NCBI RefSeq assembly: GCF_028737315.1
Contig: NZ_JAQZAO010000002.1
Span: 558,001 to 622,000, forward strand
From: Actinomycetospora lemnae
GTDB lineage: Bacteria > Actinomycetota > Actinomycetes > Mycobacteriales > Pseudonocardiaceae
DNA length: 64,000 nucleotides
Direction: 5' to 3'
How positions within the stretch are numbered: position 1 is the first letter of the stretch; the number at the start of each line of letters is the position of its first letter. Shown piece by piece: positions 2,772-37,662 of this stretch. A program made the position numbers and the translations under genes. The notes under the pieces are model-generated. The model did not search any database. It was not told where the DNA came from and saw only the letters and a list, made by a program, of their open reading frames with translations.

Positions 2772-2777
2772 TAGGCT
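2772..2777 (+). promoter_or_regulatory. -10 box (TAGGCT) of leaderless marR-type gene
   Basis: TAGGCT ends exactly 7 bases before the GTG at 2785 and there is no Shine-Dalgarno sequence, so transcription probably starts at or next to the start codon. A TTGTCG at 2747-2752 inside the operator could be the -35 box (19-base spacing). Confidence 0.65.
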
Positions 2778-2784
2778 GCACCCC

Positions 2785-3267
2785 GTGACGGACGGTGGCC
2801 GGGAGCAGCGCGAGCACCTGGTCGAGCTGCTCCAGGCCTACGCCGACGAGGCCGGGCGGCTGGGGCACGCCTTCGCCGCCGGGCAGGGGCTGCACCGCAC
2901 CGATGCCGCGGCGCTGCTCGCCGTCCTGCGCGCCGAGCGCGACGGCGACCCGCTGACGCCGGGGCGGCTCGGCGAGGAGGTCGGCCTGTCATCGGGGGCG
3001 ACGACCGCCGCGGTCGACCGGCTCGAGCGCCTCGGGCACCTCCACCGCCGCCGCGACGGCGCCGACCGCCGCCGGGTGACGCTGCACCACGACCCCGCGG
3101 GCGCCGACGTCGGGCGCGCCTTCTTCGGGCCGCTCGCCGCCCGCCTCGACGCCGTGCTCGGGGGCTACACGCCCGCCGAACTGGCCGTCGTCCACCGTTT
3201 CCTCACCGAGGTCGTCGCGTCGGTGGCCGAGCACCGCGCCGAGGTGTCGCAGGGAGGGTCGTCCTGA
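2785..3267 (+). CDS. MarR-family transcriptional regulator
   Basis: A 160-residue winged-helix repressor. The centre shows a MarR DNA-binding helix pair (TPGRLGEEVGLSSGATTAAVDRLERLGHL, broken here only for description) followed by the wing RRRDGADRRRVTL, with dimerisation helices at both ends. Family members respond to small phenolic or oxidising ligands and repress neighbouring genes; the likely targets here are itself and the divergent TspO-like gene through the palindrome at 2740-2756. The start is a GTG preceded by a -10 box at leaderless spacing. The downstream transglycosylase-like gene begins within about 35 bases and may be co-transcribed. Confidence 0.88.
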   Translation: MTDGGREQREHLVELLQAYADEAGRLGHAFAAGQGLHRTDAAALLAVLRAERDGDPLTPGRLGEEVGLSSGATTAAVDRLERLGHLHRRRDGADRRRVTLHHDPAGADVGRAFFGPLAARLDAVLGGYTPAELAVVHRFLTEVVASVAEHRAEVSQGGSS

Positions 3268-3299
3268 GCTCCCCGATCGGCGCGCCGGCCCGCCTCGCG

Positions 3300-4106
3300 G
3301 TGGTCGTCGCGGTCGTCCTCGCGGTCCTCGCCCTGCTCGTCACCCTGATCGTCGTGCTCGCCCGCAGCGACATCGCCGCCCGTCCCCGCTGCACGATCAC
3401 CGCGCCGCCCGACTCCCCCGGCCTGCCCGCCACGTGGACGCTCAGCACGGAGCAGGCCGACAGCGCGGCGACGATCGTCGGGGTCGGCCGGCGTCTCGGT
3501 GTCCCCGACCGCGCCGTGACGGTCGCCCTGGCCACCGCCATCCAGGAGTCGGGGCTGGCGAACCTCCGCGGCGGCGACCGCGATTCCCTCGGCCTGTTCC
3601 AGCAGCGCCCGAGCCAGGGCTGGGGCTCCGAGGAGGAGATCCTCGACCCCGTCTACAGCACGACCGCCTTCTACACCGCGCTCCTGCGGGTCCCCGGCTG
3701 GGCGGGCATGGACGTCACCGTGGCCGCGCAGACGGTGCAGCGCAGCGGCTTCCCCGAGGCGTACGCCGACCACGAGCCCGAGGCGCGCCTCATGGCGGTG
3801 TCGCTGCTCGGGCAGGCGCCGGCGTCGTGGACCTGCACGGACCTGCCCGCCGCTCCGCCCGCCGACCCCTCGGGCGGCGCCGTCGCCGAGCTCGCCGCCG
3901 CGGAGCTGGGCACGCGGCGGCTGTCGGGCGCGCAGCCGGCCGAGGAGGGGTGGGCGATCGCGACGTGGCTCGTCGCCCACGCGGAGCGGCTCGCGCTCGA
4001 GAGCGTCACCTACGACGGGCGGACCTGGACCGTCACCTCCGGCGCGTGGGAGCAGGCCGGCCCGGCGGACGGGCGCCTCGCGCTGCGGCGGATCGGCCAG
4101 CCCTGA
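3300..4106 (+). CDS. Membrane-anchored lytic-transglycosylase-like protein
   Basis: About 268 residues: one N-terminal membrane helix, then an extracytoplasmic domain with the lysozyme-like pattern ALATAIQESGL (Glu as probable catalytic acid) followed by GLFQQRP and YSTTAFYTALL, which are typical of actinobacterial SLT-fold proteins that are often mislabelled heavy-metal transporters. A role in peptidoglycan turnover is inferred from fold only. The start is uncertain. The GTG at 3300 lacks a ribosome site, while a CTG at 3264 that overlaps the MarR stop lies 5 bases after AGGGAGGG and would add 12 residues; if CTG is used, the gene is coupled to marR. Confidence 0.7.
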   Translation: MVVAVVLAVLALLVTLIVVLARSDIAARPRCTITAPPDSPGLPATWTLSTEQADSAATIVGVGRRLGVPDRAVTVALATAIQESGLANLRGGDRDSLGLFQQRPSQGWGSEEEILDPVYSTTAFYTALLRVPGWAGMDVTVAAQTVQRSGFPEAYADHEPEARLMAVSLLGQAPASWTCTDLPAAPPADPSGGAVAELAAAELGTRRLSGAQPAEEGWAIATWLVAHAERLALESVTYDGRTWTVTSGAWEQAGPADGRLALRRIGQP

Positions 4107-4179
4107 GCCGCGCCGAGGAGTGATCGAAGTACCGATACGGACGTTGAGTGTCTGCCACGGCACTTCGCTGATACGCCGG

Positions 4180-5804: not shown

Positions 5805-5880
5805 GAACCCCTCCGCGCGTCCCGACGGCATGCAGGACGATCAAACCACCCGGTTCCCGGTCCGCCCGGTCCGCGATCCC

Positions 5881-5905
5881 CGTTCGGGTGAACAGTCGCC
5901 GAACG
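5881..5905 (-). terminator. Hairpin downstream of lactate permease gene
   Basis: CGTTCGG and CCGAACG form a perfect 7-base stem around an 11-base loop, 25 bases after the permease stop codon. There is no T-tract, as is common for terminators in GC-rich actinobacteria. Confidence 0.4.
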
Positions 5906-5929
5906 GTTCGTCCGGCTCCGCCGTCCCGA

Positions 5930-7718: not shown

Positions 7719-7783
7719 GAACGGGCGTCGAATCTCGGTGAGGCTGCTGGCGATCGCGCTCCGCGAGGAGCACCCTGCTCTCC

Positions 7784-10769: not shown

Positions 10770-10780
10770 GACACGGTGTC
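10770..10780. promoter_or_regulatory. Small inverted repeat over the acyl-CoA dehydrogenase -10 region
   Basis: GACAC-G-GTGTC, perfect 5-base arms. It overlaps CACGGT (10772-10777), a -10-like hexamer ending 7 bases before the ATG at 10785. A repressor bound here would block initiation. Confidence 0.4.
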
Positions 10781-14010: not shown

Positions 14011-14040
14011 GACCCTCCTCGCGCCGGGTGTGCTCCGAGG

Positions 14041-15795
14041 CTACCGGGCGTCGGGCACCGGTCCGAGCCGCGCGCGCACGGCCCCCGCCGCGGCGTTGAC
14101 GACCTGGCGGGCCTGGTCGTACCCCGGGGGCTGGCTGGTGAGCACCGCGACCATGTAGCGCCCGTCGACGACGCCCGCCGAGTGCACCTCGGCGCGCCCG
14201 GCGATGCAGCACATCCAGCCCTGCTTGACCGGGGTGCGGCCGTCGAGGAACCCGAAGGCCTGGTCGAAGCCGTCGCCGGCGATCCGCACGGCCTGGCCCA
14301 TCGAGCCGAGCACCAGGTCGCGGTCGGGCGGCGGCAGCTCGACCTGGATGTGCCGCAGCAGCTTCGCCATGTCGCGCGCCGAGGTCTGCACCTCGCCCCA
14401 CTGCGACGTGTCCTCGGGCGGGGTGGTGTCCTCGAGGCCGATCGCCTCCGACACGCGGGTGATCGCGCCCGGCCCGTCGTACTGGGACCACAGGGCGTTC
14501 ATCGCCGGGTCGCTGCTGGAGCTCAGCGCCGCGCGCACGAGGCGCAGGTCGCGCGCACCGAGGGTCACCTCGCCGTCCCGCTGGCGCTGGAGCATGTCGA
14601 CGACGACGAAGAGCTTGGCCAGCGAGGCGGTGTCGAAGCGCTGGTCGCCGCCGGAGCCGGGGGCGAGCTCCCCGGTCGCGGTGTCGATGGCGGCGACGCC
14701 GACCGTCGCGCCGTTCTGCGCACCCGCCTCCTCGCCCGCGGCGACGGCGGCGGCGAGGTCGACCCGCGGCGCGTCCGGGGCGGTGGCGGGCCCGACCGAC
14801 TCGACGGGCTCGTCGCCGCCGGGCAGCTCGGCCAGGAGGCGGTCGGCCGAGGCCAGCGGGTCGGCGGTGCCGGTCGAGACCGTGTCCAGGGTGATCACCG
14901 TGCCCGCGGCGAGGGCGCCGACCATCGCGGCGCCCAGCCCGCGGGACAGACCGCGGCGCCGGGGGGCGGCCCCGGTGGCCGCCCCGGTGGCCGCCGCGGT
15001 GGCCGCCCCGGAGGCCGCGGTGGCCGTGGTGGTGCGTGTCGTGCCGGTGCGCGGACGCGGGCCGCCCGTTGCGCGGTGCCCGCCGGTGACGGCGCGGTCG
15101 GCGGTGTCGGCGCGCCCGCTCCGGCGCGCCTCGTCGGCGCGGCGGGGGGTGAGGGGGACGGGCAGCCCCGGCGCGGTGCCGGTCGCGGTCCGACGGCGCG
15201 GGGCCTCCCGGGGCACGGGGTCGGCGGCGCGTGCCGTCGCCGCGCGGGCCGGGGCGGGGCGGGCGGGTGCTGCGGCGGGCGCGGCGGCGGTGGCGGCGGC
15301 GGTGGCTAGGGCGGTCTCCGGGCGTCCGTGACGTCCGGACGGGCTGGGGTCGACGCCGACGGGCGGCGGCGCGGTGACCGTGCCCCCGGCGTGGCGGCCG
15401 CCGTGGCGCGGACCCGCGCGGTCGGGGGCCGGGACGGGCACCGGGTGGCCGGTGCCGGGCCGCGGCTCGGGTGCGCCGTGACGTCCCGCGGGCGGGTGCC
15501 CGCCCGGACGCACGCCCGGTCCCGCGTCGGGGGCACCCGGGCGGCGTCGCGGCGGCGGCGCCACGTGCGTCGCGTGGGCCGTCGGGACGGGGTGCCGCCG
15601 GACGGGCGGCGGCGGTGCGAGCACGGCGACACCGGCGCCGCCGGGTGCGTCCGCCCACGGGTCCGCGGGCGCGCCGTGGCCACCGTGGCCGCTGCGGTGG
15701 CGCGGTGGCGCGGCGACGGGCCCGCCGGAGCCGGGTGGACGGGGATGTCCCGGTGGTCCGTCCGGCCCCGACCGCGGCGGCCGGTGGGAGGTCAC
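14041..15795 (-). CDS. Class A beta-lactamase-fold serine hydrolase with long disordered N-terminal arm
   Basis: 584 residues. Residues 1 to about 270 are low-complexity Pro/Arg/Ala/Gly, then a membrane helix (about 277-300), then an extracytoplasmic penicillin-binding/beta-lactamase domain. The SxxK motif is Ser391-Leu-Ala-Lys394. The SDN motif reads SDP and the KTG motif reads Lys524-Gln-Gly, so beta-lactam hydrolysis is doubtful and a cell-wall role is more likely; similar actinobacterial proteins are annotated only as serine hydrolases. The start GTG (15793-15795) is the first one giving a plausible cytoplasmic arm, but the start of so repetitive a region is uncertain. The arm is encoded by DNA with 12-base repeats. 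Confidence 0.75.
   Translation of the reverse strand: MTSHRPPRSGPDGPPGHPRPPGSGGPVAAPPRHRSGHGGHGAPADPWADAPGGAGVAVLAPPPPVRRHPVPTAHATHVAPPPRRRPGAPDAGPGVRPGGHPPAGRHGAPEPRPGTGHPVPVPAPDRAGPRHGGRHAGGTVTAPPPVGVDPSPSGRHGRPETALATAAATAAAPAAAPARPAPARAATARAADPVPREAPRRRTATGTAPGLPVPLTPRRADEARRSGRADTADRAVTGGHRATGGPRPRTGTTRTTTATAASGAATAAATGAATGAAPRRRGLSRGLGAAMVGALAAGTVITLDTVSTGTADPLASADRLLAELPGGDEPVESVGPATAPDAPRVDLAAAVAAGEEAGAQNGATVGVAAIDTATGELAPGSGGDQRFDTASLAKLFVVVDMLQRQRDGEVTLGARDLRLVRAALSSSSDPAMNALWSQYDGPGAITRVSEAIGLEDTTPPEDTSQWGEVQTSARDMAKLLRHIQVELPPPDRDLVLGSMGQAVRIAGDGFDQAFGFLDGRTPVKQGWMCCIAGRAEVHSAGVVDGRYMVAVLTSQPPGYDQARQVVNAAAGAVRARLGPVPDAR
14971..15034. repeat. 12-base tandem repeat (CCGGTGGCCGCC type) in the disordered arm
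   Basis: About five degenerate copies of CCGGTGGCCGCC run through this stretch and encode Ala/Thr/Gly-rich residues just before the membrane helix of the beta-lactamase-like protein. The unit length is a multiple of three, so copy-number change would keep the frame. Confidence 0.6.
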
Positions 15796-15949: not shown

Positions 15950-15955
15950 TAATCT
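15950..15955 (+). promoter_or_regulatory. -10 box (TAATCT) of leaderless aminotransferase gene
   Basis: TAATCT ends exactly 7 bases before the GTG at 15963, and no ribosome site is present between them. Confidence 0.65.
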
Positions 15956-15962: not shown

Positions 15963-16988
15963 GTGCGTGATGCGTTCGGCACGACCTTCGACGTGGACGG
16001 CGTCTACCTCAACACCCCGTCCATCGGGCTGCCGCCGCAGCCGGTGGTCGCCGCGGTGACCGAGGCGGTCACGGCCTGGGGGCGGGCGGAGACCTCGGCG
16101 CCGCAGTTCGACGCGCCGGTCGCGACGGCACGGGCGGCGTTCGCGCAGCTCGTGGGCGTGCCGGCGTCGTCGGTGGTGCTGGGCACCGCGGTCTCGGGGC
16201 TGCTCGGGCTCGTCGCCGCGTCGCTGCCGCCGGGCGCCCGGGTGCTCACCGCCGACCGCGAGTTCACCAGCGTCACGTTCCCGTTCGTCTCGGCAGGCCA
16301 CGAGGTGGTCGAGCTGCCCCTCGACGAGCTGCCCGAGCGCACCCGGGCGGCCGACGTCGTCGCGGTCAGCGTCGTGGCGTCGGCCGACGGGGCGGTGGTG
16401 GACCTCGACGCCCTGCGCGCCGAGGTCGGCCCCGACACGCTCGTCGTCCTCGACGCGACGCAGTCGCTGGGCTGGCTGCCCGCCGACCTCTCGTGGGCCG
16501 ACGTCGTCGTCGCCGGCGGGTACAAGTGGCTGCTCTCGCCCCGCGGCGCGGCGTGGATGGCGCTCTCGGACCGCCTCGCCGAGCGGATCGCACCCGTCCA
16601 GTCCGGCTGGTACGCGGGCGGCTGGGACGCGATCTACGGGCTGCCGCTGCGCCTGCACCCCGACGCCCGCCGCTTCGACCTCTCCCCCGTCTGGCTCGCC
16701 CAGGTCGGCGCGGCCGTGGCCCTGCCGTGGATCGCCTCGCTCGACGCCGAGGCCGTGCGCGACCACTCCGTCGGCCTGGCCAACCGCGTCCGGGTGGGCC
16801 TCGACCTGCCACCCGCCGAGTCGGCGATCGTGTCGGTGCGCCACCCCGACGCCCCCGACCGGCTCGGTCGCGCGGGCGTGCGCTGCGCGGTGCGTGGCGG
16901 GGCGGCCCGGCTCGGGTTCCACCTGCACAACACCGAGGACGACGCCGACGAGGTGGTGGCGGCGGTCCGGGGTCGGTCGCGGGACTAG
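15963..16988 (+). CDS. Aminotransferase class V / cysteine desulfurase-like PLP enzyme
   Basis: 341 residues of fold type I. Lys188 in AGGYKWLL is the expected Schiff-base lysine, preceded by VVLDATQSLGW, the Asp that pairs with the PLP ring nitrogen. The protein is shorter than true cysteine desulfurases (about 400 residues) and has no catalytic Cys loop near the C-terminus, so it is more like the small class V enzymes of unknown substrate found across actinobacteria. The start is a leaderless GTG. The last 4 coding bases overlap the end of the convergent MFS gene. Confidence 0.83.
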   Translation: MRDAFGTTFDVDGVYLNTPSIGLPPQPVVAAVTEAVTAWGRAETSAPQFDAPVATARAAFAQLVGVPASSVVLGTAVSGLLGLVAASLPPGARVLTADREFTSVTFPFVSAGHEVVELPLDELPERTRAADVVAVSVVASADGAVVDLDALRAEVGPDTLVVLDATQSLGWLPADLSWADVVVAGGYKWLLSPRGAAWMALSDRLAERIAPVQSGWYAGGWDAIYGLPLRLHPDARRFDLSPVWLAQVGAAVALPWIASLDAEAVRDHSVGLANRVRVGLDLPPAESAIVSVRHPDAPDRLGRAGVRCAVRGGAARLGFHLHNTEDDADEVVAAVRGRSRD

Positions 16989-18469: not shown

Positions 18470-18576
18470 GCCGCCAGCATGACCGCCTCACCGGGAGGTG
18501 ACGAGGTCCGGGGGCGGTGACAGGGCGAGGAGGCGGACCCGTGATCGTCGGCGGTCGCCGCTACCGTGCACCCATC

Positions 18577-20135: not shown

Positions 20136-20155
20136 GAACGCCCATGCTGGCGGAC

Positions 20156-20392
20156 ATGACCGCCGCGAGCACGCGCGGCCGCGCGCCCCGCCCGGCGCGC
20201 TTCACGTTCTGGGTGGACCGGGCGGGCACGCTCGGCCCGGTCCTGCTGCGCTACGACCTGCGCGGCAGCGGCACGCGCCGGGGCGCCCGGCTCGGCGTCC
20301 TGACCACGCACCGCGTGTGCCCGGTGACGCTGCGCCACTGCCGACCCGCATCGGTGAGGTCGCTCCTCGGTCGTTCGGTCCCGTTCCGTTAG
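20156..20392 (+). CDS. Small basic protein of unknown function
   Basis: 78 residues, rich in Arg and Thr, no membrane helix, no family recognised. Evidence that it is real: the third codon positions are almost all G or C for the first 60 codons, as in neighbouring genes, and CATGCT ends exactly 7 bases before the ATG, matching the leaderless pattern here. The last 15 codons are more AT-rich. Its TAG stop (20390-20392) forms the first half of the -10 box of the next gene. It could also be a chance open frame in the divergent interval. Confidence 0.45.
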   Translation: MTAASTRGRAPRPARFTFWVDRAGTLGPVLLRYDLRGSGTRRGARLGVLTTHRVCPVTLRHCRPASVRSLLGRSVPFR

Positions 20393-20395
20393 GTT
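20390..20395 (+). promoter_or_regulatory. -10 box (TAGGTT) of leaderless membrane-protein gene
   Basis: TAGGTT ends exactly 7 bases before the ATG at 20403. The TAG is also the stop codon of the small gene before it. Confidence 0.65.
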
Positions 20396-20402
20396 CGTCG
20401 CC

Positions 20403-21905
20403 ATGCTCGACTCGGGCGCCCGCATCGCCGCCGCCTTGCTCCCCGTCGGGATCCCCGTCCTCGTGGGGCTCGTGGTGGCCGTGCTCCGCCGTCGGACGAT
20501 CCCCGCGGTGGCGACACCGGCCATCGCCGGGCTCGCGGTGCAGCTCGTCGTCACGCTGATCTCGACGTTCCTCGTGGCCGAGACCTCGCTGCACGTCTTC
20601 GGGCTGTCCGACCAGACCCTCCTGCCGGTCGCCAGCGCCCTCGGGCTCGTGCTGATCCTGCTGCAGGTCGTGTCCTGGACGCTGCTGCTCATCGCGCTCT
20701 TCCGCCGCCTGCCGCCGGCGCCCGAGGACCGCACCCCGACCGGCCGCCACGCCCTGCTCGACGACCGCGGCGACCAGGTGGTCGCCGACGCCGGCACGGT
20801 CCTGCTGCCGGTCGGCGCCGCTGCGGGGGCCGCCGGTGCCGGGGTGGGTCTCGGTGCGGCGGCGACCACGACCCCCGGCGCCCCGCCCGACCTCGCGCCG
20901 CCGACCGGTCCCCTGCCCACGTCCGGCGCCGGCCGGCCCGGCGCCCCGACGGGTGGGCCCGGCACCTCCGCGGGTGGGCCCGGCAGCTCGCCCCTGCCGT
21001 CGATCTCGCGGCCGGGACCCGTCGGCCCGCCGCCCGGTCGCGGCCCGGCCGGTCCGCCACCCTTCGCCGCGCCCGTCCCGACCGTCGGCCCGCGCGACGA
21101 GGAGCCGGTGCCCGAGGACAGGCCCGAGGACGCGGGCGACGAGCTGCCCGAGGGCCCCAACGAGATTGACGTCGCTGCTGAGACCGACGTCGCCGCCGAG
21201 GCCGACGGCACCGGACCCGCGGGGTCGACCGACGAGACCCGCGACCCCGACGAGGGGGCCGAGGACGACGACCCCGCGACCACCGAGTACCCGGGCTACC
21301 TCGAGGGCGTGGCGGGCGCCCCGGTCGCGCCTGATGCTTCGGTTTCCGGAGCATCCGCCGTCAGGGACCCCGACCCGGACCCCGACGCGGAGCCCGCGGA
21401 CGACGAGGACGACCTCGCCGGCGAGACGGGCTCGATCGCGGCGACCTCGTCGGTGCCCGGAGCATCTGCCGTCGGCGACGCCGGCTCGGACACCTCGACG
21501 CCGGCGAACGCTTCGGTTCCCGAAGCCTCGGCAGCGGATGATGGCGACACCGAGACCGTGGTCGTCGGCGAGGATGTCGATGAGGAGCCGGCGGCGGACG
21601 CCGACGACATCGACGGTGCCGACGACATCCACGGTGCCGACGAGCTCGATGAGACCGACGCGGCCGACGAGCTCGACGAGCCGGCCACGACCGCCACGAC
21701 CGCCACGACCGCCACGACCGCCACGACCGGCACGACCGGCACCGGCTCCGGCGCGGGGCCGGGCAACGGCGCGCCGGCGCCGACCGGGTCGGGCGCGGCG
21801 GCCGGGACCGGCTCCGGAGCCCCGGCCGGCCACCCATGGTTCGACCCCGACGGCGAGGCCGCCGCCCAGCGCGCCGCGCAGGCGGGCACGGGCGACGGTC
21901 GCTGA
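20403..21905 (+). CDS. Membrane protein with long acidic, repeat-bearing tail
   Basis: 500 residues. Three membrane helices fill residues 1-100 (ending LLLIALFRRL). The remaining 400 residues are disordered: first Pro/Gly/Ala-rich, then strongly acidic (Asp/Glu/Ala/Thr), then a Thr/Ala tract encoded by a 9-base tandem repeat. The acidic part has three degenerate copies of an xSVxxASAx peptide, two of which coincide with DNA hairpins and locally AT-richer codons. No family is recognised; the architecture suggests a membrane anchor with an extended cytoplasmic or surface arm. The start is a leaderless ATG. Confidence 0.75.
   Translation: MLDSGARIAAALLPVGIPVLVGLVVAVLRRRTIPAVATPAIAGLAVQLVVTLISTFLVAETSLHVFGLSDQTLLPVASALGLVLILLQVVSWTLLLIALFRRLPPAPEDRTPTGRHALLDDRGDQVVADAGTVLLPVGAAAGAAGAGVGLGAAATTTPGAPPDLAPPTGPLPTSGAGRPGAPTGGPGTSAGGPGSSPLPSISRPGPVGPPPGRGPAGPPPFAAPVPTVGPRDEEPVPEDRPEDAGDELPEGPNEIDVAAETDVAAEADGTGPAGSTDETRDPDEGAEDDDPATTEYPGYLEGVAGAPVAPDASVSGASAVRDPDPDPDAEPADDEDDLAGETGSIAATSSVPGASAVGDAGSDTSTPANASVPEASAADDGDTETVVVGEDVDEEPAADADDIDGADDIHGADELDETDAADELDEPATTATTATTATTATTGTTGTGSGAGPGNGAPAPTGSGAAAGTGSGAPAGHPWFDPDGEAAAQRAAQAGTGDGR
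21333..21355. repeat. Small hairpin element inside the acidic-tail gene, copy 1
   Basis: GATGCTTCGG-TTT-CCGGAGCATC: 10-base arms with one mismatch around TTT. Codons here use T and A at third positions, unlike the rest of the gene. A decayed second copy without its left arm occurs near 21453-21466. Confidence 0.55.
21510..21526. repeat. Small hairpin element inside the acidic-tail gene, copy 3
   Basis: GCTTCGG-TTC-CCGAAGC: perfect 7-base arms around TTC, sharing the CTTCGGTT core with copy 1 and encoding the same peptide type (ASVPEASA). Confidence 0.55.
21685..21738. repeat. 9-base tandem repeat CCACGACCG (five exact copies plus a variant)
   Basis: Five exact copies of CCACGACCG (21685-21729) and one GCACGACCG variant encode a Thr/Ala tract. 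The unit is in frame, so slippage would change tail length without breaking the gene. Confidence 0.85.
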
Positions 21906-23121: not shown

Positions 23122-23127
23122 TAGGCT
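23122..23127 (+). promoter_or_regulatory. -10 box (TAGGCT) of leaderless GlxA-type gene
   Basis: TAGGCT ends exactly 7 bases before the GTG at 23135; identical hexamer and spacing to the marR-type and DUF2630 genes. Confidence 0.65.
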
Positions 23128-23134: not shown

Positions 23135-24094
23135 GTGGGCGCGACGGTCATCGTGGGCTACGAGGACGCCGAGCTGCTCGACGTCGCCTGCGTGAGCTCC
23201 ACGTTCTCGACGGCCAACGACCTCGGCGCCGACCCGCCCTACGCCGTCACGCTCCTGACCCCCGGCGGGCACGCGATCACCTGCCGGCCCGGCCTGCGCC
23301 TGGAGGCGCACGGGGCGCTCGAGCAGTACACGGGCCCGGTGGACACGCTCGTCGTGGTCGGCGGCCTCGGCAGCCCCCGGGCGGCGGCCGACCCGGTGCT
23401 CCTCGCCCACGTCCGGCGCCTCGCGCGCGACGCCCGGCGGGTCGCGTCGGTGTGCACCGGGGCGAGCATCCTGGCCGCGGCCGGCCTGCTCGACGGGCGC
23501 CGGGCCACGACGCACTGGTGGTTCGCCCCCGAGCTCGCCCGCGCGCACCCCGCGGTCCACGTCGACCCCGACCCGATCTTCGTGCGGGACGGGAAGATCG
23601 CCACCTCGGCCGGTGTCACCAGCGCGCTGGACCTCGCCCTGTCCTTCGTCCACGAGGACCACGGGCCGGCCCTGGCCCGCCAGGTCGCCCGGGCGCTCGT
23701 CACCTACCTGCAACGTCCCGGCACCCAGGCCCAGATGAGCGTGCACGTCGCCGCCCCGGTCCCCGCCGACGACGTCGTGCGCGGGGTGGTCGACCACGTC
23801 GCCGGGCACCTCGACGGCGACCTCGGCGCCGCCGCGCTCGCCGCCCGCGCGGGCGTCAGCGAGCGGCACCTCACGCGCCTGTTCCGCGCCCACCTCGGGC
23901 GCACGCCCGCCGAGCACGTCCGCCGCGCGCGCACCGAGGCCGCCGCCCACCTCGCGACCACCACGGAAGTCCCGCTCGCGCGCGTGGCCGCACGCTGCGG
24001 CTTCCGCTCCACCGAGACGATGCGGACGGCGTTCCTCGAGGTCTACGGACGCACGCCCTCGGAGCACCGCCGGGCCTTCGTCACGGCCGTCTGA
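23135..24094 (+). CDS. GlxA-family transcriptional regulator (DJ-1/PfpI + AraC HTH)
   Basis: 319 residues. Residues 1-180 form a class I glutamine amidotransferase-like (DJ-1/PfpI) sensor domain with SVCTGASILAAAGLL, where the Cys sits at the nucleophile elbow. Residues about 215-315 form an AraC-type double helix-turn-helix (AARAGVSERHLTRLFRAHLGRTP and ARVAARCGFRSTETMRTAF). Such regulators often activate genes for amino-acid, glycine-betaine or carnitine use; the target is unknown. The 3' end overlaps the convergent CDF gene by 14 bases. Confidence 0.9.
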   Translation: MGATVIVGYEDAELLDVACVSSTFSTANDLGADPPYAVTLLTPGGHAITCRPGLRLEAHGALEQYTGPVDTLVVVGGLGSPRAAADPVLLAHVRRLARDARRVASVCTGASILAAAGLLDGRRATTHWWFAPELARAHPAVHVDPDPIFVRDGKIATSAGVTSALDLALSFVHEDHGPALARQVARALVTYLQRPGTQAQMSVHVAAPVPADDVVRGVVDHVAGHLDGDLGAAALAARAGVSERHLTRLFRAHLGRTPAEHVRRARTEAAAHLATTTEVPLARVAARCGFRSTETMRTAFLEVYGRTPSEHRRAFVTAV

Positions 24095-25022
24095 CGCCCT
24101 CGACGGCGGGCAGCGGCGAGCAGGCCTCCTCGTGGTCGGCGTGCTCGAGGGCCTCGATCTGCAGGGTGCTGTGGTGCAGGCCGAAGCGGTCGCGCAGCAG
24201 GGTCGACGCGCGGTCGAGGACGCCGTGCTCGCCGCAGTCGGCGGTGGCGCAGCCCTCGTCGGAGATCACGAGGTGCGCGGAGACGGCGGGGCTGCGGTCG
24301 TTGATCGACCAGACGTGCAGGTCGTGGACCTCCGCGACGCCCTCGACGTCGAGGAGCGCGGCGTGGACGTCGTCGACGTCGATGCCCGCCGGGGTGCCCT
24401 CGAGCAGGACGTGCCCGGTCTCGCGCAGCAGCCCGACGGTGCGCGGCAGGAGGATCGCGACGATGACCAGCGAGGCGACGGTGTCGGCGTAGACCCAGCC
24501 GGTGGTCAGCGTGACCACCGCGGCCGCGAGCACCGCGACCGAGCCCAGGGCGTCGCCGAGCACGTGCAGCGCGGCCCCGCGCACGTTCATCCCGCCCCCG
24601 CCACGCTGCAGCACCGCGAGCGAGACGAGGTTGCCGACGAGACCCACGAGGCCGTAGAGGAGCAGCCCGGCGCCGGGCACCTCGGTGGGCGTGGCGATCC
24701 GTTCGACGGCCTCGACGGCGACCCACACCGTCACCCCGAGCAGCAGGACGGCGTTGAGCGCGGCGCCGAGCACCTCGGCGCGCCCCAGCCCGAAGGTGCG
24801 CCGTCGGGACGGGGGCCGCGTGGCGAGGCCGGCGGCGATCACCGCCGTCGCGAGCGCGACGACGTCGGTGCCGACGTGGCCGAGGTCGGCGAGCAGGGCG
24901 AGCGAGCCCGTGACCACCGCGCCGACCGCACCCACCACCGCCACCAGGGCGGTGACGGCGAGCGCGAGGCCGAGGCGCCGGCGGTCGTCGGCGGCGCCGC
25001 CGTGACCGTGTCCGTGACCCAC
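24081..25022 (-). CDS. Cation diffusion facilitator (zinc/cadmium-type exporter)
   Basis: 313 residues, six membrane helices plus a cytoplasmic domain. Helix 2 has LLADLGHVGTD and helix 5 has HVLGDALGS, giving the HxxxD-type metal site of Zn/Cd exporters such as CzcD. The N-terminus starts MGHGHGHGG, a metal-binding histidine arm, and the C-terminus has Cys/His-rich segments (CATADCGEHG, HADHEEAC). I choose the GTG at 25020-25022 because TATGGT lies exactly 7 bases before it and the His arm then begins at once; the ATG at 25032-25034 would add four residues. An AT-rich imperfect repeat (25035-25056) just upstream may bind a metal sensor. Confidence 0.88.
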   Translation of the reverse strand: MGHGHGHGGAADDRRRLGLALAVTALVAVVGAVGAVVTGSLALLADLGHVGTDVVALATAVIAAGLATRPPSRRRTFGLGRAEVLGAALNAVLLLGVTVWVAVEAVERIATPTEVPGAGLLLYGLVGLVGNLVSLAVLQRGGGGMNVRGAALHVLGDALGSVAVLAAAVVTLTTGWVYADTVASLVIVAILLPRTVGLLRETGHVLLEGTPAGIDVDDVHAALLDVEGVAEVHDLHVWSINDRSPAVSAHLVISDEGCATADCGEHGVLDRASTLLRDRFGLHHSTLQIEALEHADHEEACSPLPAVEGVRRP

Positions 25023-25029: not shown

Positions 25030-25035
25030 ACCATA
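25030..25035 (-). promoter_or_regulatory. -10 box (TATGGT on the minus strand) of the CDF gene
   Basis: Reads TATGGT on the minus strand and ends exactly 7 bases before the chosen GTG. It overlaps the alternative ATG. Confidence 0.5.
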
Positions 25036-25097: not shown

Positions 25098-25136
25098 ACA
25101 CCACACTGCCACCACACCCGGCCCTACAGTGTGCCG

Positions 25137-25823
25137 GTGCCCGACAATCCCTGGCTCACGGTCACCGGCGGCACGGCCGGACCGGGCTACGCCGCCCGGT
25201 TCGCGGACCTCGCGGCGCAGGGCGAGGACCTCGACGGCGAGGCGCGCCGGGTGCACGCGCTCCTGGGCGGCCGGCCGAGCGACGTCCTCGACGCGGGCTG
25301 CGGCACCGGGCGGGTCGCCATCGCGCTCGCGCGGCTGGGGCACCGGGTGGTCGGCGCCGACCTGGACGCCTCGATGCTCGACCAGGCGCGGGCCGCGGCT
25401 CCGGAGCTCGACTGGCGCCTCGTCGACCTCACCGAGCTGCGCCTCGACCACCCCGTCGACGCCGTCGTCGCCGCGGGCAACCTGTGGCCGCTGCTCACGC
25501 CGGGCACGCACGCCGCGGTGATCGAGGTCCTGGCCCGTCACCTGCGCCCCGGCGGCCTCCTGGTCGCCGGGTTCGGGCTCGACGCCGAGCACGTGCCCTT
25601 CACGCTGCCCGACGGCGTCCCGTTCCCGACCCTCGCCGCCTACGACGACGGGTGCGCCGCCGCGGGCCTGCGCCCGGTGACGCGCACGGCGGACTGGGAG
25701 GGCGAGGAACCCTACGAGGGCGGCGGCTACGCCGTCAGCGTCCACGAGAAGCCCACCAGGAGCGAGCTCGACCTGCTGCGGTCGCGGGAGGACACCTCGG
25801 CCCCGGAGCCCTCGACCCCGTGA
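25137..25823 (+). CDS. Class I SAM-dependent methyltransferase
   Basis: 228 residues of the Rossmann-like methyltransferase fold. Motif I reads VLDAGCGTGRVAIALA, then VGADLDASML (acidic ribose-binding residue) and the motif RPGGLLVAGF. It uses S-adenosylmethionine; the acceptor molecule is not predictable. The GTG start has TACAGT 6 bases upstream and no ribosome site. The stop overlaps the GTG start of the antiporter gene (GTGA), so the two are translationally coupled. Confidence 0.87.
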   Translation: MPDNPWLTVTGGTAGPGYAARFADLAAQGEDLDGEARRVHALLGGRPSDVLDAGCGTGRVAIALARLGHRVVGADLDASMLDQARAAAPELDWRLVDLTELRLDHPVDAVVAAGNLWPLLTPGTHAAVIEVLARHLRPGGLLVAGFGLDAEHVPFTLPDGVPFPTLAAYDDGCAAAGLRPVTRTADWEGEEPYEGGGYAVSVHEKPTRSELDLLRSREDTSAPEPSTP

Positions 25824-28314: not shown

Positions 28315-28881
28315 TCACTCGCGTGGGGCAACCTCGCGGACACGGACCTCGACCGGCATGGCGAGCAGCGCGTCCAGCACCCGGTGCTCGCGGCGCAGCG
28401 GCAGGCGCGCGAAGAAGAACAGGTCCAGCGGGTACCAGAGCCCGACCCACGCGATGACGAGGAAGACCCCGTTGCCCAGCACGTCCTGGAGGAACGCGGG
28501 GACGTCGGGCTCGAGGAAGCCGGTCGAGAACAGCAGGCCGATCAGGAACAGCGGGATGCCCGGGCGCAGCGAGTTCAGGCCCTGGCGCCACAGCACCGCG
28601 CCCTCCCGCTCGCCCCGCTCGTTGCGACGCACGCACCAGCGGCGCAGGACGGTCTGCAGGTGCGCGGCCGTCGCCGCCGGGTCGGGTCCGGCCGTCGCGG
28701 GCGGCAGCGTCACCACGACCCGGTCGTGGCGCCCGGGCCGCCCGCGGGCCAGGAGCTCGTCGACGATCTCCTCCGCGCCCGGGACGCTGCGGGCGTCGGG
28801 GTCGTCGTAGAGGCCCGCCGGATCGACCGTGACCAGGTCCTCGGGGCGGGTCAGGTGCACGACGACCTCGCGCCCGCTCAC
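28315..28881 (-). CDS. Membrane protein coupled to CDF-family gene, function unknown
   Basis: 188 residues. The first 100 form a soluble charged domain (REVVVHLTRPEDLVTVDP onward); the second half has two membrane helices (GIPLFLIGLLFSTGFL and GNGVFLVIAWVGLWYPLDLFFFA) and a short basic tail. No family recognised. The start GTG (28879-28881) overlaps the stop of the CDF gene by 4 bases, so it is probably a subunit or accessory of that transporter. Confidence 0.72.
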   Translation of the reverse strand: MSGREVVVHLTRPEDLVTVDPAGLYDDPDARSVPGAEEIVDELLARGRPGRHDRVVVTLPPATAGPDPAATAAHLQTVLRRWCVRRNERGEREGAVLWRQGLNSLRPGIPLFLIGLLFSTGFLEPDVPAFLQDVLGNGVFLVIAWVGLWYPLDLFFFARLPLRREHRVLDALLAMPVEVRVREVAPRE

Positions 28882-29789
28882 AGGGCCCACCGCCGGTCGG
28901 TCGTGAACGCGACGACCACCGAGCGCTCGTGGCCCAGCGCCGCGAGCCGGTCGTGCAGGGCCTGCCGGACGACGTCCCCGTCGGCGACCGTGTGCACCGA
29001 CGACCCCTCCCCCACCACGTAGTCCACCTCCACGTCGACCCGCGCGCCGACCTTCGATGCCCGCAGGAACGCCTCGGCCAGCCCGAACTCCTCGCGCACC
29101 GCCTCGACCGCGTCGTCGAGCTCCGCCTGGGTCTGCGCCGGCGGCGCCATCGCGAGGATCTCCCGCATGCCCCCGCCGATGAGGCGCGCCGGGATGCGGA
29201 GGAACGCGAGCGACACGACGACGACCATGGCCGGGTCGACGTAGGCGGCGAGGTCGGGACGCCCGCTGGCCACGAGCACCACCGCGATGACGAACCCGAG
29301 GAGCACGCCGACCGAGAGCAGGGTGTCGCCGAACCACTCGGCGGCCTCGGCCCGGACGAGGTCCGACCGGCCGCCCCGGCGCATGAGGACCGTGACGACG
29401 ACGCCGGCGACGGTCGCGACGATCGCGTAGGCGAGGGCCCACCCCGTGGCGACCTCGCGGCCGCCGGCGACGAGGTCGGTGATGCCGCCGACCACGGCGT
29501 ACACGCACAGGGCGGCCAGCGCGACGGCCTTGACCACCACGACGACCGGCTCCCACGACTCCCGCCCCCACGGGTAGCGCTCGTCGGCCCCGCGCCGCGA
29601 GGTGCGCAGCGCGAACACCGCCAGCATCGAGAGCCCGATGCTGGCGAACGACGAGAGCCCGTCGAACACGATCATCGAGGAGCCGCTGAGCACCCCCCAC
29701 ACCGACGAGATCAGGGCGAACGCCGCCGACGCCCACACCGACAGGAGCAGCAGGCGCCGGTCACGGCCGCCGGTCTCGCTCGTCTCCAC
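28878..29789 (-). CDS. Cation diffusion facilitator-like transporter
   Basis: 303 residues, six membrane helices and a C-terminal cytoplasmic domain, of the CDF superfamily. The metal-site positions are non-classical: helix 2 has VFDGLSSFASIG and helix 5 has EWFGDTLLSVG, so one Asp is kept in each but the usual HxxxD pairs are missing. This argues against a standard zinc exporter and suggests Mn, Fe or another substrate. The GTG start has CACGAT exactly 7 bases upstream. It is co-transcribed with the overlapping membrane-protein gene. Confidence 0.8.
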   Translation of the reverse strand: METSETGGRDRRLLLLSVWASAAFALISSVWGVLSGSSMIVFDGLSSFASIGLSMLAVFALRTSRRGADERYPWGRESWEPVVVVVKAVALAALCVYAVVGGITDLVAGGREVATGWALAYAIVATVAGVVVTVLMRRGGRSDLVRAEAAEWFGDTLLSVGVLLGFVIAVVLVASGRPDLAAYVDPAMVVVVSLAFLRIPARLIGGGMREILAMAPPAQTQAELDDAVEAVREEFGLAEAFLRASKVGARVDVEVDYVVGEGSSVHTVADGDVVRQALHDRLAALGHERSVVVAFTTDRRWAL

Positions 29790-29949
29790 GCCGGTGATCG
29801 TGACGGTCGCGCGCGCCCACGTCGAGACGTTCGATCACCCAGAGGATTGTCATCGGCAGGCTCCCGTCGGACACTCGTCGCACGCTCACCCGTTCAGCCG
29901 CACCGAGCGAGCGGGACATCGCGCTGTGTGACAGCTCAGGAGATCGCCG

Positions 29950-32205
29950 ATGACGGTCACCGCCCCGCGGGAGCCGGCGAACCCGGCCGGCCCCGCCGAC
30001 TCCTCCGACTCCTCCGACTCCTCCGACGGCCGGGAGTCGCCGAAGCGGCTGGGTGCCGCCCGGGCGCGGGTCGAGGGCGTCGCCCGCTGGCGGCCGGTCA
30101 CCGCGACAACGGTGCTCCTGCTGCTGGTCACCGGCATCGCGACCGGGGCGTTCTGGAGCCCCGCGGCCGACCGGTCCTGGGCGTCCTCGGTGCTCACGGG
30201 CGTGCCCGCGCTCGCCGAGGGCCACGTGTGGACGCCGCTGTCGGCCGCGCTGGTCGGCGCGCACCCGGTCGGCGCCGTGCTCGGGCTCCTGGTCGCGGCG
30301 GTGGGGCTCGGGTGGGCCGAGGGACGCCTCGGCTCCGGGCGCACGGCGCTCGTGCTCGTCGTCGGCCAGCTGGCCGCGGTGCTCGCCGCGACCGGCCTGG
30401 TGGCCCTGCTCGCGGCGTCCGGCTGGGTCTGGGCGGTGGCGCTCGCGGGTGCGCTGACCGGCGGCGTCTCCACCGGCGTGCTCGCCGTGCTCGCCGTCGC
30501 GTCGGCGACCCTCCACGCGCCGTGGCGGCTGCGGCTGCGCCTCGTGCTGGCCGGGATCGCGCTCGTCGGGCTGCTCTTCCTCGGCCACCTCGCCGACGCC
30601 GCCCACACGCTCGCGCTGGCCGTCGCGCTGCCGCTCGGCCGCCGGCTCGCCGGGCCCGCCGCGGTGCCGTCACCCGCCGGGCGGCCGGGCCGCCGCGAGT
30701 TCCGCCTGGTGGCCGCCGCGGGCCTCGTCGTCATCGCCGTGATCCGGGTGCTGACCCTCGTCGTGCCGGTCGTCGGGCCCCTCGGCAACACCGCCTCGGA
30801 CTCGACGGTCGTCGAGACCCTGGTGTCGGTGGCGATCGCGCTGCTGCTCGCCGAGGGACTGCGCCGCGGGCGCCGCCCGGCGTGGGTGGCGGGCTTGCTG
30901 CTCGGCGCCTTCTACCTGCTCCTGGGGCTCGTCGTGGTCGGCGTCGTCGTGTACGCGCAGGCCACCGAACAGATGGACCAGGTCGAGCTCGTCGGCCTCG
31001 CGGTCTTCGTGCCGAACGCGGTGCTGTGGTCGGCGCTCGTGGTGTGGCTGGTCGTGGGCCGCCACGCCTTCGCGGTCCCGTCGCGCCGGCGGCTGCGCCG
31101 TCGCTCCGGAGCGGCGGCCAGTGGCCCCGAGGTCGCCCGCGAGGCGCTGCACCGCCACGGCGGGTCGACGCTGTCGTGGATGGCGACGTGGCCGGAGAAC
31201 CGGTACCTCGCGCACACCGGAGACGCAGCGGAGCGGGCCTCGACCACGGGGACCGACGGGGTCACCGCCTACCGCGCCCACGCCGGGGTGGCGGTGGCCC
31301 TCGGCGACCCGATCGTCGCCCCCGCCGACCGGTCCGCCGCGCTCGAGGACTTCCGGGCGATGGCCGAGCGCTCCGGCTGGGTGCCGTGCCTGTTCTCGAC
31401 CACCGAGGCGCTCGCCGACGTCGCGCGGGCCGACGGCTGGCGGGCGCTGCAGGTCGCCGAGGACACGCTGATCGACCTCGAGGGCCTCGAGTTCAAGGGC
31501 AAGCCCTGGCAGAACGTGCGCAGCGCCTTCAACCGCGCCGGCAAGGCGGGCATCGAGCACCGGATGGTGCACCTCGCCGAGGAGCCGCGGTCGGTCGTGG
31601 CGCAGGTCCGGGCGATCTCCGAGGAGTGGGTCGGCGACAAGGGCCTGCCCGAGATGGGCTTCACGCTCGGCGGGGTCGAGGAGGCCCTCGACCCGGAGGT
31701 GCGCACCGGCCTCGCCGTCGACGCCGAGGGCACCGTCCACGGCGTCACCTCGTGGCTGCCGGTGTACGGGCCCGCCGGGAGACGGAGTGGAGCGGAGCTC
31801 GACCCGTCGGAGCGCGTCGTGGTCGGCTGGACCCTCGACGTCATGCGCCGCCGGCAGGAGGGGTTCCGGGCGGTCGTCGAGTACCTCATCGCCTCGGCGT
31901 GCCTGACGTTCCAGGCCGAGGGCGCGCGGTTCCTGTCGCTGTCCGGAGCGCCGCTGGCCCGGGCCGAGGGGGAGGGCGACGCGCAGGTGCTCGACCGCGT
32001 CCTCGACCGCATGGGCGAGCTCCTCGAGCCCTACTACGGCTTCCGCTCGCTGCACACCTTCAAGGCCAAGTTCCAGCCGCGCTATGAGCCGATGTTCCTG
32101 CTCTACCGCGACGAGGCCGACCTCCCGCGGGTCGGGATCGGCATCGGGCGCGCCTACCTCCCCGACGCCCGCGTCCGCGATCTCGTGGCGCTGGTGCGGG
32201 GCTAG
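29950..32205 (+). CDS. MprF-like phosphatidylglycerol aminoacyltransferase (DUF2156) with rhomboid-like N-terminus
   Basis: 751 residues. Residues about 40-380 carry ten or so membrane helices whose first part (GHVWTPLSAALVGAHPVGAVLG) resembles rhomboid-like membrane domains but lacks a catalytic GxSG. Residues about 400-745 form the DUF2156/LPG-synthase GNAT-fold domain (KGKPWQNVRSAFNRAGKAGI, EEWVGDKGLPEMGFTLGG, SLSGAPLA). It probably transfers Lys or another amino acid from tRNA to phosphatidylglycerol, lowering surface charge; no lysyl-tRNA synthetase domain is attached. The ATG at 29950 follows AGGAG by 7 bases. Ser-Asp-Ser repeats near residue 20 come from a TCCTCCGAC tandem repeat. Confidence 0.82.
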   Translation: MTVTAPREPANPAGPADSSDSSDSSDGRESPKRLGAARARVEGVARWRPVTATTVLLLLVTGIATGAFWSPAADRSWASSVLTGVPALAEGHVWTPLSAALVGAHPVGAVLGLLVAAVGLGWAEGRLGSGRTALVLVVGQLAAVLAATGLVALLAASGWVWAVALAGALTGGVSTGVLAVLAVASATLHAPWRLRLRLVLAGIALVGLLFLGHLADAAHTLALAVALPLGRRLAGPAAVPSPAGRPGRREFRLVAAAGLVVIAVIRVLTLVVPVVGPLGNTASDSTVVETLVSVAIALLLAEGLRRGRRPAWVAGLLLGAFYLLLGLVVVGVVVYAQATEQMDQVELVGLAVFVPNAVLWSALVVWLVVGRHAFAVPSRRRLRRRSGAAASGPEVAREALHRHGGSTLSWMATWPENRYLAHTGDAAERASTTGTDGVTAYRAHAGVAVALGDPIVAPADRSAALEDFRAMAERSGWVPCLFSTTEALADVARADGWRALQVAEDTLIDLEGLEFKGKPWQNVRSAFNRAGKAGIEHRMVHLAEEPRSVVAQVRAISEEWVGDKGLPEMGFTLGGVEEALDPEVRTGLAVDAEGTVHGVTSWLPVYGPAGRRSGAELDPSERVVVGWTLDVMRRRQEGFRAVVEYLIASACLTFQAEGARFLSLSGAPLARAEGEGDAQVLDRVLDRMGELLEPYYGFRSLHTFKAKFQPRYEPMFLLYRDEADLPRVGIGIGRAYLPDARVRDLVALVRG

Positions 32206-32208
32206 GCT
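32203..32208 (+). promoter_or_regulatory. -10 box (TAGGCT) of leaderless DUF2630 gene
   Basis: TAGGCT ends exactly 7 bases before the ATG at 32216. Its TAG is also the stop codon of the MprF-like gene. Confidence 0.65.
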
Positions 32209-32215
32209 CGCTCAC

Positions 32216-32443
32216 ATGGCGGACGACGACACCCTGGGCACCATCCACGCGCTGGTCGACGAGGAGCACCGGCTGCGGGGGCACGGGGAGGCGATCAACG
32301 ACGAGGACCGGGCCCGCCTGGCGCAGATCGAGGAGCAGCTCGACCAGTGCTGGGACGCCCTGCGACGCCGTCGCGCGGGGCGGGACTTCGGCGGCGACCC
32401 GGGCTACGCGACCGAGAAGCAGGTGCACGACTACCTGCAGTAG
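32216..32443 (+). CDS. DUF2630 family protein
   Basis: 75 residues, predicted helical, matching DUF2630 with IHALVDEEHRLR near the start, the LDQCWDALRRRRA block and a C-terminal VHDYL. Function is unknown; the family is nearly restricted to actinobacteria and close relatives. It lacks a signal peptide or membrane helix. The ATG is preceded by a leaderless promoter box that shares bases with the upstream stop codon. Confidence 0.88.
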   Translation: MADDDTLGTIHALVDEEHRLRGHGEAINDEDRARLAQIEEQLDQCWDALRRRRAGRDFGGDPGYATEKQVHDYLQ

Positions 32444-34171: not shown

Positions 34172-34232
34172 GGCGTCTCCTGTCGGCCGCGGGGCGGGAG
34201 CCCCACCGTAGGGAGCGTGACGGGCGCGCAGG

Positions 34233-35858: not shown

Positions 35859-35937
35859 GCGCCTCCCCCACCGACCGTGACCCGTCGAGCCTGGCCGGTG
35901 CGGAGGCCGCCGACAAGGGCGTGGTCAGCCGGAGGGG

Positions 35938-36594: not shown

Positions 36595-36601
36595 CAGGAC
36601 A

Positions 36602-37213
36602 TCACAGCAGCCCGGCGAGGTGCTGGGTCTCGTTCACCGAGCTCACCCGGCGGGCGCCCGACCGCGAGACGAGCACGCGGGTCACCGACGTGTGGTGCAG
36701 CGGGAAGGTCAGCGGACGGTCGATGCCGAGGATCCCGGTGACGTAGGTGTTGATCACGCCGGCGTGACAGACGACCACCGCGGTGGCCCGCGGGTCCTGC
36801 CGCGCGACGACCGCGTCGAGGGCGCCGACCAGGCGCGCGGTGAACGCCGGGCCGTCGACGTACGACGGGAACACCCCGGACCGGATGGCCTGCCAGTCCT
36901 CGTCGGCGTCGTCGCGCAGGTGCACCGGGCGGTAGGACCCGCGCCCGCGGTCGAACTCGCACAGGTCCTCGACGGCGGCCGGCTCCGGGGTGCCGAGGAG
37001 GCGCACGGCCGGGGCCGCCGACTCCCGGGCACGGAGCATCGTCGAGGTGACGATCTCGGCGACGCCGTCGCGGTCGGGGCCGCCGGCGAGCCACGTCGCG
37101 AAGCGGTCCGCCTGCTCCTGCCCGCGCGCGGACAGGGCCGGGTCCGCGCCCGCCGCCCCCGGCTCGGCGGTCGCCGCGAGGGGCTCGGCGTGGCGGACGA
37201 GCAGCAGCTGCAT
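36602..37213 (-). CDS. Histidine-phosphatase (phosphoglycerate mutase-like) family protein
   Basis: 203 residues. LLLVRHAEP at the N-terminus is the RHG/RHE catalytic motif with the phospho-accepting His, and VVCHAGVINTYV supplies the second catalytic His. Such enzymes remove phosphate from small molecules or proteins; the substrate is unknown. Start ATG at 37211-37213 lies 7 bases after the stop of the HIT gene, in the middle of a three-gene operon. Confidence 0.9.
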   Translation of the reverse strand: MQLLLVRHAEPLAATAEPGAAGADPALSARGQEQADRFATWLAGGPDRDGVAEIVTSTMLRARESAAPAVRLLGTPEPAAVEDLCEFDRGRGSYRPVHLRDDADEDWQAIRSGVFPSYVDGPAFTARLVGALDAVVARQDPRATAVVVCHAGVINTYVTGILGIDRPLTFPLHHTSVTRVLVSRSGARRVSSVNETQHLAGLL

Positions 37214-37220
37214 CGGGCGG

Positions 37221-37649
37221 TCAGGCGTCCGGGACGGCGGCGCCGTGCCCGGCGGCGCGCAGCCCGGCGCGGATCGCCTCGGCGTGCCGGTCCATCTCCG
37301 CCGGGTCCGGGTCGCTCTCGGCCCGGGAGAAGTCGAACGCCTCGAGCCCCCAGGCGGGGTGGACGTGCACGTGGAGGTGCGGCACCTCGAAGCCCGCGAC
37401 CATGAGCGCCACGCGCGGCGGCGACCAGGTGTCACGGATCACGGTCCCGATCGTCTTCGCCACCCCCATGGCGTGCTCGAACAGGCCGTCGGGGGCGTCG
37501 ATCCACTGGTCGACCTCCTCCCGAGGCACGACCAGCACGTGACCGGGCCCGAGGGGGTTGATGGACAGGAACCCGACCACCTGCTCGTCCGACCAGACGA
37601 ACCGTCCCGGGATCTCGCCGTTGATGATCTTGGTGAAGACGGTGGCCAC
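37221..37649 (-). CDS. HIT-family nucleotide hydrolase/transferase
   Basis: 142 residues of the histidine-triad family. The triad HLHVHVHP and the upstream INPLGPGHVLVVPREEV are intact. HIT proteins act on nucleoside phosphoramidates or dinucleoside polyphosphates in the cytoplasm. The GTG start at 37647-37649 has TACGAT exactly 7 bases upstream and no ribosome site. It heads the operon with the histidine phosphatase and the TMEM175-like protein. Confidence 0.92.
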   Translation of the reverse strand: MATVFTKIINGEIPGRFVWSDEQVVGFLSINPLGPGHVLVVPREEVDQWIDAPDGLFEHAMGVAKTIGTVIRDTWSPPRVALMVAGFEVPHLHVHVHPAWGLEAFDFSRAESDPDPAEMDRHAEAIRAGLRAAGHGAAVPDA

Positions 37650-37656
37650 GGCGGGG

Positions 37657-37662
37657 ATCGTA
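37657..37662 (-). promoter_or_regulatory. -10 box (TACGAT on the minus strand) of leaderless HIT gene
   Basis: Reads TACGAT on the minus strand and ends exactly 7 bases before the GTG start. Confidence 0.6.

Follow-up and report, generated by a model that had tools for sequence, protein, structure and literature searches.

In eight genes of Actinomycetospora lemnae, the ATG or GTG start codon lies 6 or 7 bases downstream of the hexamer TANNNT. They lie in a window of 64 kb, the whole stretch of DNA that was analyzed (contig NZ_JAQZAO010000002.1, positions 558,001 to 622,000). Very probably, these boxes are the -10 elements of housekeeping promoters and the messages are leaderless. At one gene, the first three letters of the box are the stop codon of the gene upstream. 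It appears rather probable that -10 box and stop codon can stand in for each other in GC-rich actinobacteria: a stop codon would become a promoter for the leaderless gene that follows, and a box would replace a deleted stop. The choice of TAG would then be set in part by the transcription of the next gene, and many operon joints would hide leaderless promoters. Leaderless promoters as such are well known and unremarkable in the phylum; the fusion of stop codon and box is proposed here.

The window has a GC content of 75.5% and contains 16 TANNNT sites on both strands. Seven of these end exactly 7 bases before ATG or GTG, and all seven start codons open reading frames of at least 70 codons (75-500). 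The other 30 spacings between 0 and 30 bases together yield 13 matches. What lies beyond chance is the combination, seven of 16 sites at one spacing and all seven opening reading frames. A sequence-only reading of the window had listed seven strict boxes, and all were found, each followed by 7 bases, a start codon and an open reading frame.

The genome comprises 6.06 Mb in 30 contigs. Samples of 1.2 Mb were analyzed, which together with the window cover 1.26 Mb. Genes were called by a codon-usage model blind to the box, yielding 809 genes in sample 1 (864 kb) and 384 genes in sample 2 (400 kb), in total 1,193. Spacing counts included all ATG and GTG candidates up to 90 bases from the model start. 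Boxes at spacings of 6, 7 and 8 bases numbered 29, 50 and 29 in sample 1 and 19, 19 and 13 in sample 2, compared with 0-9 boxes (mean 3.3) and 0-4 boxes (mean 1.5), respectively, at each of 28 other spacings. Further samples of 400 kb each yielded 17/23/4 boxes at the three spacings in a genome of the same genus, 14/23/14 in one of the same family and 22/14/7 (mode 6) in one of the same order. A weak peak (6/7/3) was present on Streptomyces clavuligerus pCLA1 (300 kb). The control replicon, Sinorhizobium meliloti pSymB, had no peak at these spacings (6/2/2). Eight control hexamers were counted. No comparable peak occurred for ATNNNA, TANNNA, AANNNT and TTNNNT, with AANNNT reaching 10 at spacing 6, and the counts of TANNNC, TANNNG, CANNNT and GANNNT were swamped by the three-base coding rhythm and uninformative. 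In the whole genome, where only GTG was counted, TANNNT-N7-GTG occurred 258 times versus 136 times for the reversed control. The corresponding counts for TANNNT-N7-ATG exceeded the reversed control in all six actinobacterial genomes reached via named loci (185/99, 243/49, 148/119, 231/77, 362/171 and 205/108). The comparison of distances suggested by the sequence-only reading, made on these samples, revealed an enrichment over spacings 6-8 and not at 7 alone. Its spacing of exactly 7 was too narrow: 7 is the mode of the peak, and 6 and 8 are common.

The strict box precedes 158 of the 1,193 genes. By position, it was found before 80 of 416 divergent genes and, among same-strand genes, before 30 of 310 at gaps above 60 bases, 20 of 114 at gaps of 26-60, 23 of 145 at gaps of 1-25, and 5 of 204 with overlap. 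Leaderless genes are frequent by this count, yet not the normal form. The numbers for divergent and wide-gap genes do not support the suggestion of the sequence-only reading that leaderless messages seem to be the usual state of unlinked regulators and single genes. Relaxed CANNNT and GANNNT boxes add some further genes to the strict-box count.

Box genes have the signature of leaderless transcripts. In the samples of this genome, 1 of the 158 box genes has a strong Shine-Dalgarno motif upstream, versus 301 of the 1,034 other genes. Transcription starts favor a pyrimidine before a purine. C occupies position -1, directly upstream of the start codon, in 56 of 69 box genes at spacing 7, in 35 of 41 at spacing 8 and in 32 of 48 at spacing 6, versus 560 of the 1,034 other genes. 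GTG is commoner as start codon than ATG (102 of 158). The -35 element TTGACn was sought upstream of the 158 box genes and was present in at most three at any offset. The spacing peak, the near-absence of Shine-Dalgarno motifs, the C before the start purine and the conservation in close orthologues support a role of the boxes as -10 elements of leaderless genes. RNA polymerase would use the box as -10 element and begin transcription at the start-codon purine, and the resulting leaderless 5' end would offer the ribosome a bare start codon to load on. Promoter activity and transcription starts are predicted here from the sequence.

Orthologous loci, counted with the window's own locus where fetched and with a box defined by a spacing of 6-8 bases unless stated otherwise, retain the box beside the start. 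It was present in 74 of 77 close loci of seven genes and in 7 of 7 loci of a methyltransferase gene, even where the start codon slides. The box TAGGCT (2772-2777, plus strand, spacing 7) precedes a MarR-family gene (2785-3267), and 7 of 9 close loci are boxed at spacing 6-7. The box TAATCT (15950-15955, plus strand, spacing 7) stands before a class-V aminotransferase gene (15963-16988), whose product is 96% identical to the aminotransferase of Actinomycetospora straminea. Boxes occur in 7 of 8 Actinomycetospora loci and in 40 of 59 others, reaching the Acidimicrobiaceae. A gene at 20403-21905, whose product has no known family in Pfam or NCBIfam, follows the box TAGGTT (20390-20395, plus strand, spacing 7). 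All 17 genus loci are boxed, at spacing 7 in nine and 6 in eight. The promoter of this gene is unusually conserved; the sequence GTTAGGTTCG at 20388-20397 differs by one or two letters in 5 of 17 loci. A GlxA-type regulator gene (23135-24094) with DJ-1/PfpI and AraC helix-turn-helix domains has the box TAGGCT (23122-23127, plus strand, spacing 7). Its ten close loci are all boxed, at spacings 6 (four), 7 (five) and 8 (one), and the start codon moves with the box. The box TATGGT (25030-25035, minus strand, spacing 7) precedes a CDF cation exporter gene (24081-25022) and was found in all seven readable loci of ten given, at spacing 7 in six and 8 in one. The HIT-domain gene (37221-37649) follows the box TACGAT (37657-37662, minus strand, spacing 7), and 16 of 16 genus loci are boxed, at spacing 7 in 13 and 6 in three. 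The DUF2630 gene follows the box TAGGCT (32203-32208, plus strand, spacing 7), and all ten genus loci are boxed at spacing 7.

Several results weigh against a leaderless origin of these messages. Dinucleotide shuffles of the window contained the arrangement TANNNT-N7-ATG or GTG 2.62 times on average, and 2 of 100 shuffles reached seven, presumably because shuffling raises TANNNT above its level in real coding DNA; the bare count of seven matches is only moderately unusual. Judged from the other spacings, chance alone would account for about 14 of the 158 box genes. C at position -1 already occurs in 54% of other genes, and its excess is small at spacing 6. Gene starts were taken from the codon-usage caller, which erred at the CDF gene. 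A box at spacing 6-8 is missing from two of the nine close MarR loci and one of the eight genus aminotransferase loci. Among more distant loci, boxes were found at only 2 of 20 DUF2630, 5 of 20 GlxA-type and 3 of 10 MarR-type loci (19 of 20 MarR loci were readable). The two exceptional close MarR loci (L170 and L173) have a box farther upstream, followed by GGAGGT 5 or 6 bases before the GTG, as judged by eye. This is an apparent switch from a leaderless to a leadered message within the genus. A related explanation accepts the boxes as promoters but lets the messages begin a few bases from the start codon, with a very short leader and another ribosome signal. The use of three spacings fits such a leader, and the distance from box to transcription start in Streptomyces lividans (mean 6.3, range 4-9; PMC8079986, PMC6742748) would permit a start just before the codon. 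This explanation is nevertheless very unlikely, as C precedes the start purine in 91 of 110 genes at spacings 7 and 8, and a leader of 1-3 bases is too short for a Shine-Dalgarno site.

Leaderless genes with TANNNT about 12 bases before the start have been described in Actinobacteria (PMC3160421). Leaderless starts have been mapped in S. lividans (PMC8079986, PMC6742748), Corynebacterium glutamicum (PMC3890552) and Mycobacterium tuberculosis (PMC3898074), while Actinomycetospora is known here from its DNA only. Published shares of leaderless transcripts range from 17 to 33% (PMC3160421, PMC8079986, PMC6742748, PMC3890552, PMC3898074). The box genes resemble those described in the box and its distance, the ATG or GTG start and the lack of a Shine-Dalgarno motif. 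As in the account of M. tuberculosis (PMC3898074), no conserved -35 motif is seen, whereas TTGACn is reported for S. lividans (PMC8079986, PMC6742748). Since these accounts have TTGACn absent in the former and present in the latter, a -35 element is not a required feature. ATG accounts for 67.8% of the starts reported for S. lividans, in contrast to the GTG majority found here.

The box can also decide between start codons. The codon-usage caller placed the start of the CDF gene at 25592. This extension has a coding score of 6.9 versus 168 for 24081-25022, and the CDF domain does not begin until residue 209 of the extended protein. The start at 25022, which follows from the box, fits better because of the low score of the extension, the domain position and the presence of an antisense gene in the extension. 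The suggestion that the spacing can settle start codons, made for this exporter, is supported. The antisense gene (25137-25823, plus strand) encodes a methyltransferase with a coding score of 112 and a match to Pfam PF13649. It was hidden by the CDF extension and absent from the gene call. Its box TACAGT (25125-25130, plus strand, spacing 6) was missing from the sequence-only reading and was found at spacing 6 in all seven readable loci of ten given. Similar proteins occur in 98 plasmid records. The gene overlaps a Na/H exchanger gene (25820) by four bases. The CDF and methyltransferase genes are divergent, and both are boxed. The box rule is strong enough to correct a start codon and to find a missed gene.

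Fusion of a stop codon with a box occurs at the DUF2630 gene (32216-32443, plus strand, PF10944, 75 codons). The TAG at 32203-32205 ends a 751-codon LPG_synthase_C gene (29950-32205, plus strand, coding score 381, PF09924) and begins the DUF2630 box, an overlap not noted in the sequence-only reading. The DUF2630 start lies 10 bases after the upstream stop. Sample 1 contains the same arrangement at 12 box genes, with one, six and five cases at spacings 6, 7 and 8 and at most two at any other spacing up to 40. Pair statistics used five actinobacterial samples, solid upstream genes and model starts, and compared gaps of 9-11 bases with the other gaps between 0 and 60. The stop was TAG or TAA in 35 of 56 pairs at gaps 9-11 versus 87 of 390 at other gaps (Fisher, 3e-9). 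An effect of TAG in general was separated from the effect of the box by requiring T at the sixth box position. TAG or TAA together with this T was found in 20 of 56 versus 12 of 390 pairs (2.5e-12). Sample by sample, the pairs at gaps 9-11, those with TAG or TAA and those with the T numbered 24/13/10, 4/3/2, 9/7/3, 6/3/1 and 13/9/4. The fusion was first seen in sample 1 and tested afterwards, with the four fresh samples serving as the test. These yielded TAG or TAA in 22 of 32 versus 54 of 240 pairs (3e-7) and the additional T in 10 of 32 versus 6 of 240 (6e-7). In S. meliloti pSymB, a small control, 3 of 8 pairs at gaps 9-11 had TAG or TAA and none of the 8 had the T.

Stop and box trade places between species. 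In five of the ten DUF2630 genus loci, the TAG of the box is the stop of the upstream gene; in the other five, a TGA starts 4 or 5 bases before the box. A tree of the ten loci requires one change of state. Loss of the four bases TGAC (as judged by eye), which would leave the TAG of the box to stop the frame, is the likelier direction, because rows with separate stops fall on both sides of the midpoint root, which was set for drawing only. All ten close loci of a pseudouridine synthase gene (PF00849) are boxed at spacing 6-7, and three are fused via TAA. In at least five, the upstream frame ends at a stop of its own, 5-13 bases ahead of the box (TAG in L334; TGA in L335, L338, L339 and L341). 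Locus L340, with a TGA five bases earlier by eye, and L336, with a short upstream frame, were not counted as fused. A PIG-L gene (PF02585) is fused in 7 of 10 close loci. Seven distant loci of each of these two genes had no box. The fusion counts of both genes refer to whichever gene lies upstream in each species. At two loci, DUF2630 and pseudouridine synthase, the box keeps its place beside the start whether the stop lies within it or outside.

At a fused pair, the downstream gene would own a promoter inside an apparent operon, and one sequence would end a protein and start the next message. Hexamers containing TA are rare at 75% GC, so that the T-A pair of a box could readily be supplied by a stop codon. 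In turn, a new stop could readily arise from a box adjoining a lost stop codon. On a read-through message from upstream, the downstream start would follow the stop by 9-11 bases, and re-initiation may supplement the leaderless route.

The excess of TAG and TAA at gaps 9-11 may also be attributed to stop codons overlapping a Shine-Dalgarno site (TAGGAGG), as in Bacillus subtilis, a pattern described for genes 10 bases apart (PMC2784483). Seven of the 35 pairs look so by eye. The explanation is unlikely for the excess as a whole: T at the sixth position accompanies 20 of the 35 TAG or TAA stops versus 3 of 21 TGA stops at the same gaps. By eye, no such motif follows the stop at 32203 or those before the PIG-L and pseudouridine synthase genes; position 32203 reads TAGGCTCGCTCACATG, and no AGGAGG-like motif is formed with the stop. 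The box at spacing 6-7 also persists where the stop is elsewhere, as at DUF2630 and pseudouridine synthase. Another explanation regards TANNNT as coincidental and has the ribosomes of the upstream message re-initiate at the downstream gene of a fused pair. Re-initiation is feasible across gaps as short as 9-11 bases, and the pairs resemble operons. Coincidence fails, however, to explain the frequency of TAG or TAA with T in the fresh samples, and orthologues with a separate TGA stop keep the box at the same spacing, which makes this explanation highly improbable. Re-initiation and the leaderless route may both act at fused pairs.

The fusion of stop and box has points against it as well. It is infrequent, with 12 solid cases in the 1,193 genes of this genome, and the statistics came after its first observation in sample 1. 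Among the 35 TAG or TAA pairs at gaps 9-11, 15 lack the T, including the seven that look by eye like Shine-Dalgarno overlaps (for example TAGAGGAG and TAGGAGG), which are known to favor TAG. The S. meliloti control comprises only the 8 pairs at these gaps. No fusion was found in the 300 kb of S. clavuligerus pCLA1, where just one pair at gaps 9-11 is too few to judge. Two of the ten close PIG-L loci keep the TAG without the T, and one has neither and lacks a box. A fusion at 20390 was considered and rejected. The upstream frame of 82 codons scores 18, and 8 of 17 loci match, mostly at the beginning of the frame. Toward the end of the frame, the shared letters are those of the promoter, and the fusion at this site is therefore probably a coincidence.

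Fused pairs resemble the overlap of stop codon and Shine-Dalgarno site, in which the choice of the stop tracks the signal of the next gene at a short fixed gap and for which spacer deletion has been proposed as route (PMC2784483). The shared signal is translational in that case, while here it is a promoter box, marked by T as the third base beyond the stop and by the lack of a Shine-Dalgarno motif. The four-base overlaps ATGA and GTGA (130 candidate pairs at gap -4 in sample 1) likewise let neighboring genes share the letters of two signals, though of a stop and a start codon instead of a stop and a promoter. In PMC6319747, which speaks of leaderless genes and of an overlap with a stop codon, the overlap is one of start and stop codon. 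A literature search, limited mostly to openly available papers, found no description of a stop codon as part of a -10 box. The fusion adds a cause for the choice of TAG in GC-rich genomes and a simple route by which one signal takes over from the other. A gap of roughly 10 bases can signal a new promoter instead of an operon joint, as the boxed genes at same-strand gaps of 1-25 bases illustrate.

Five relaxed boxes with the same spacing had been proposed in addition. All are present as text (CACCCT, CACGGT, CATGCT, CACGAT and AACGAT). Among 742 called starts with 45 free bases upstream, CANNNT occurred 28, 16 and 13 times and GANNNT 15, 12 and 3 times at spacings 6, 7 and 8. Both types exceed their neighboring spacings, GANNNT clearly only at 6 and 7. 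AANNNT was not enriched at the three spacings in these 742 starts (1/3/2) and was dropped as a relaxed box. CACCCT (7771-7776, plus strand, spacing 7), of the enriched type CANNNT, precedes the POT transporter gene at 7784. CACGGT (10772-10777, plus strand, spacing 7) stands before the ATG at 10785 of an acyl-CoA dehydrogenase gene and CACGAT (29797-29802, minus strand, spacing 7) before a second CDF gene (28878-29789). The open reading frame at 20144 behind CATGCT is small and doubtful. AACGAT (48705-48710, plus strand) before the GTG at 48718 of a sensor kinase gene has no statistical support, because its type is not enriched.

Other TANNNT sites of the window are placed differently. The box TAGCCT (14038-14043, minus strand) lies 27 bases before the ATG at 14010 of a CsoR-type metal repressor gene (PF02583), with GAGGAGG in between, and looks like an ordinary leadered promoter. 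TACCGT (18562-18567) precedes by 9 bases the in-frame GTG at 18577 of a Peptidase_M50B-like gene; the model start is 18541, and the start is uncertain. TACTCT (2753-2758, minus strand) is located 21 bases before the ATG at 2731 and was read as a leadered promoter for comparison. This site is overlapped by a palindrome with perfect arms, CTCTCGATTGTCGAGAG (2740-2756), between the MarR gene (2785) and the divergent gene starting at 2731 on the minus strand. A related sequence occurs upstream of close MarR orthologues, and the palindrome may serve as the MarR operator.

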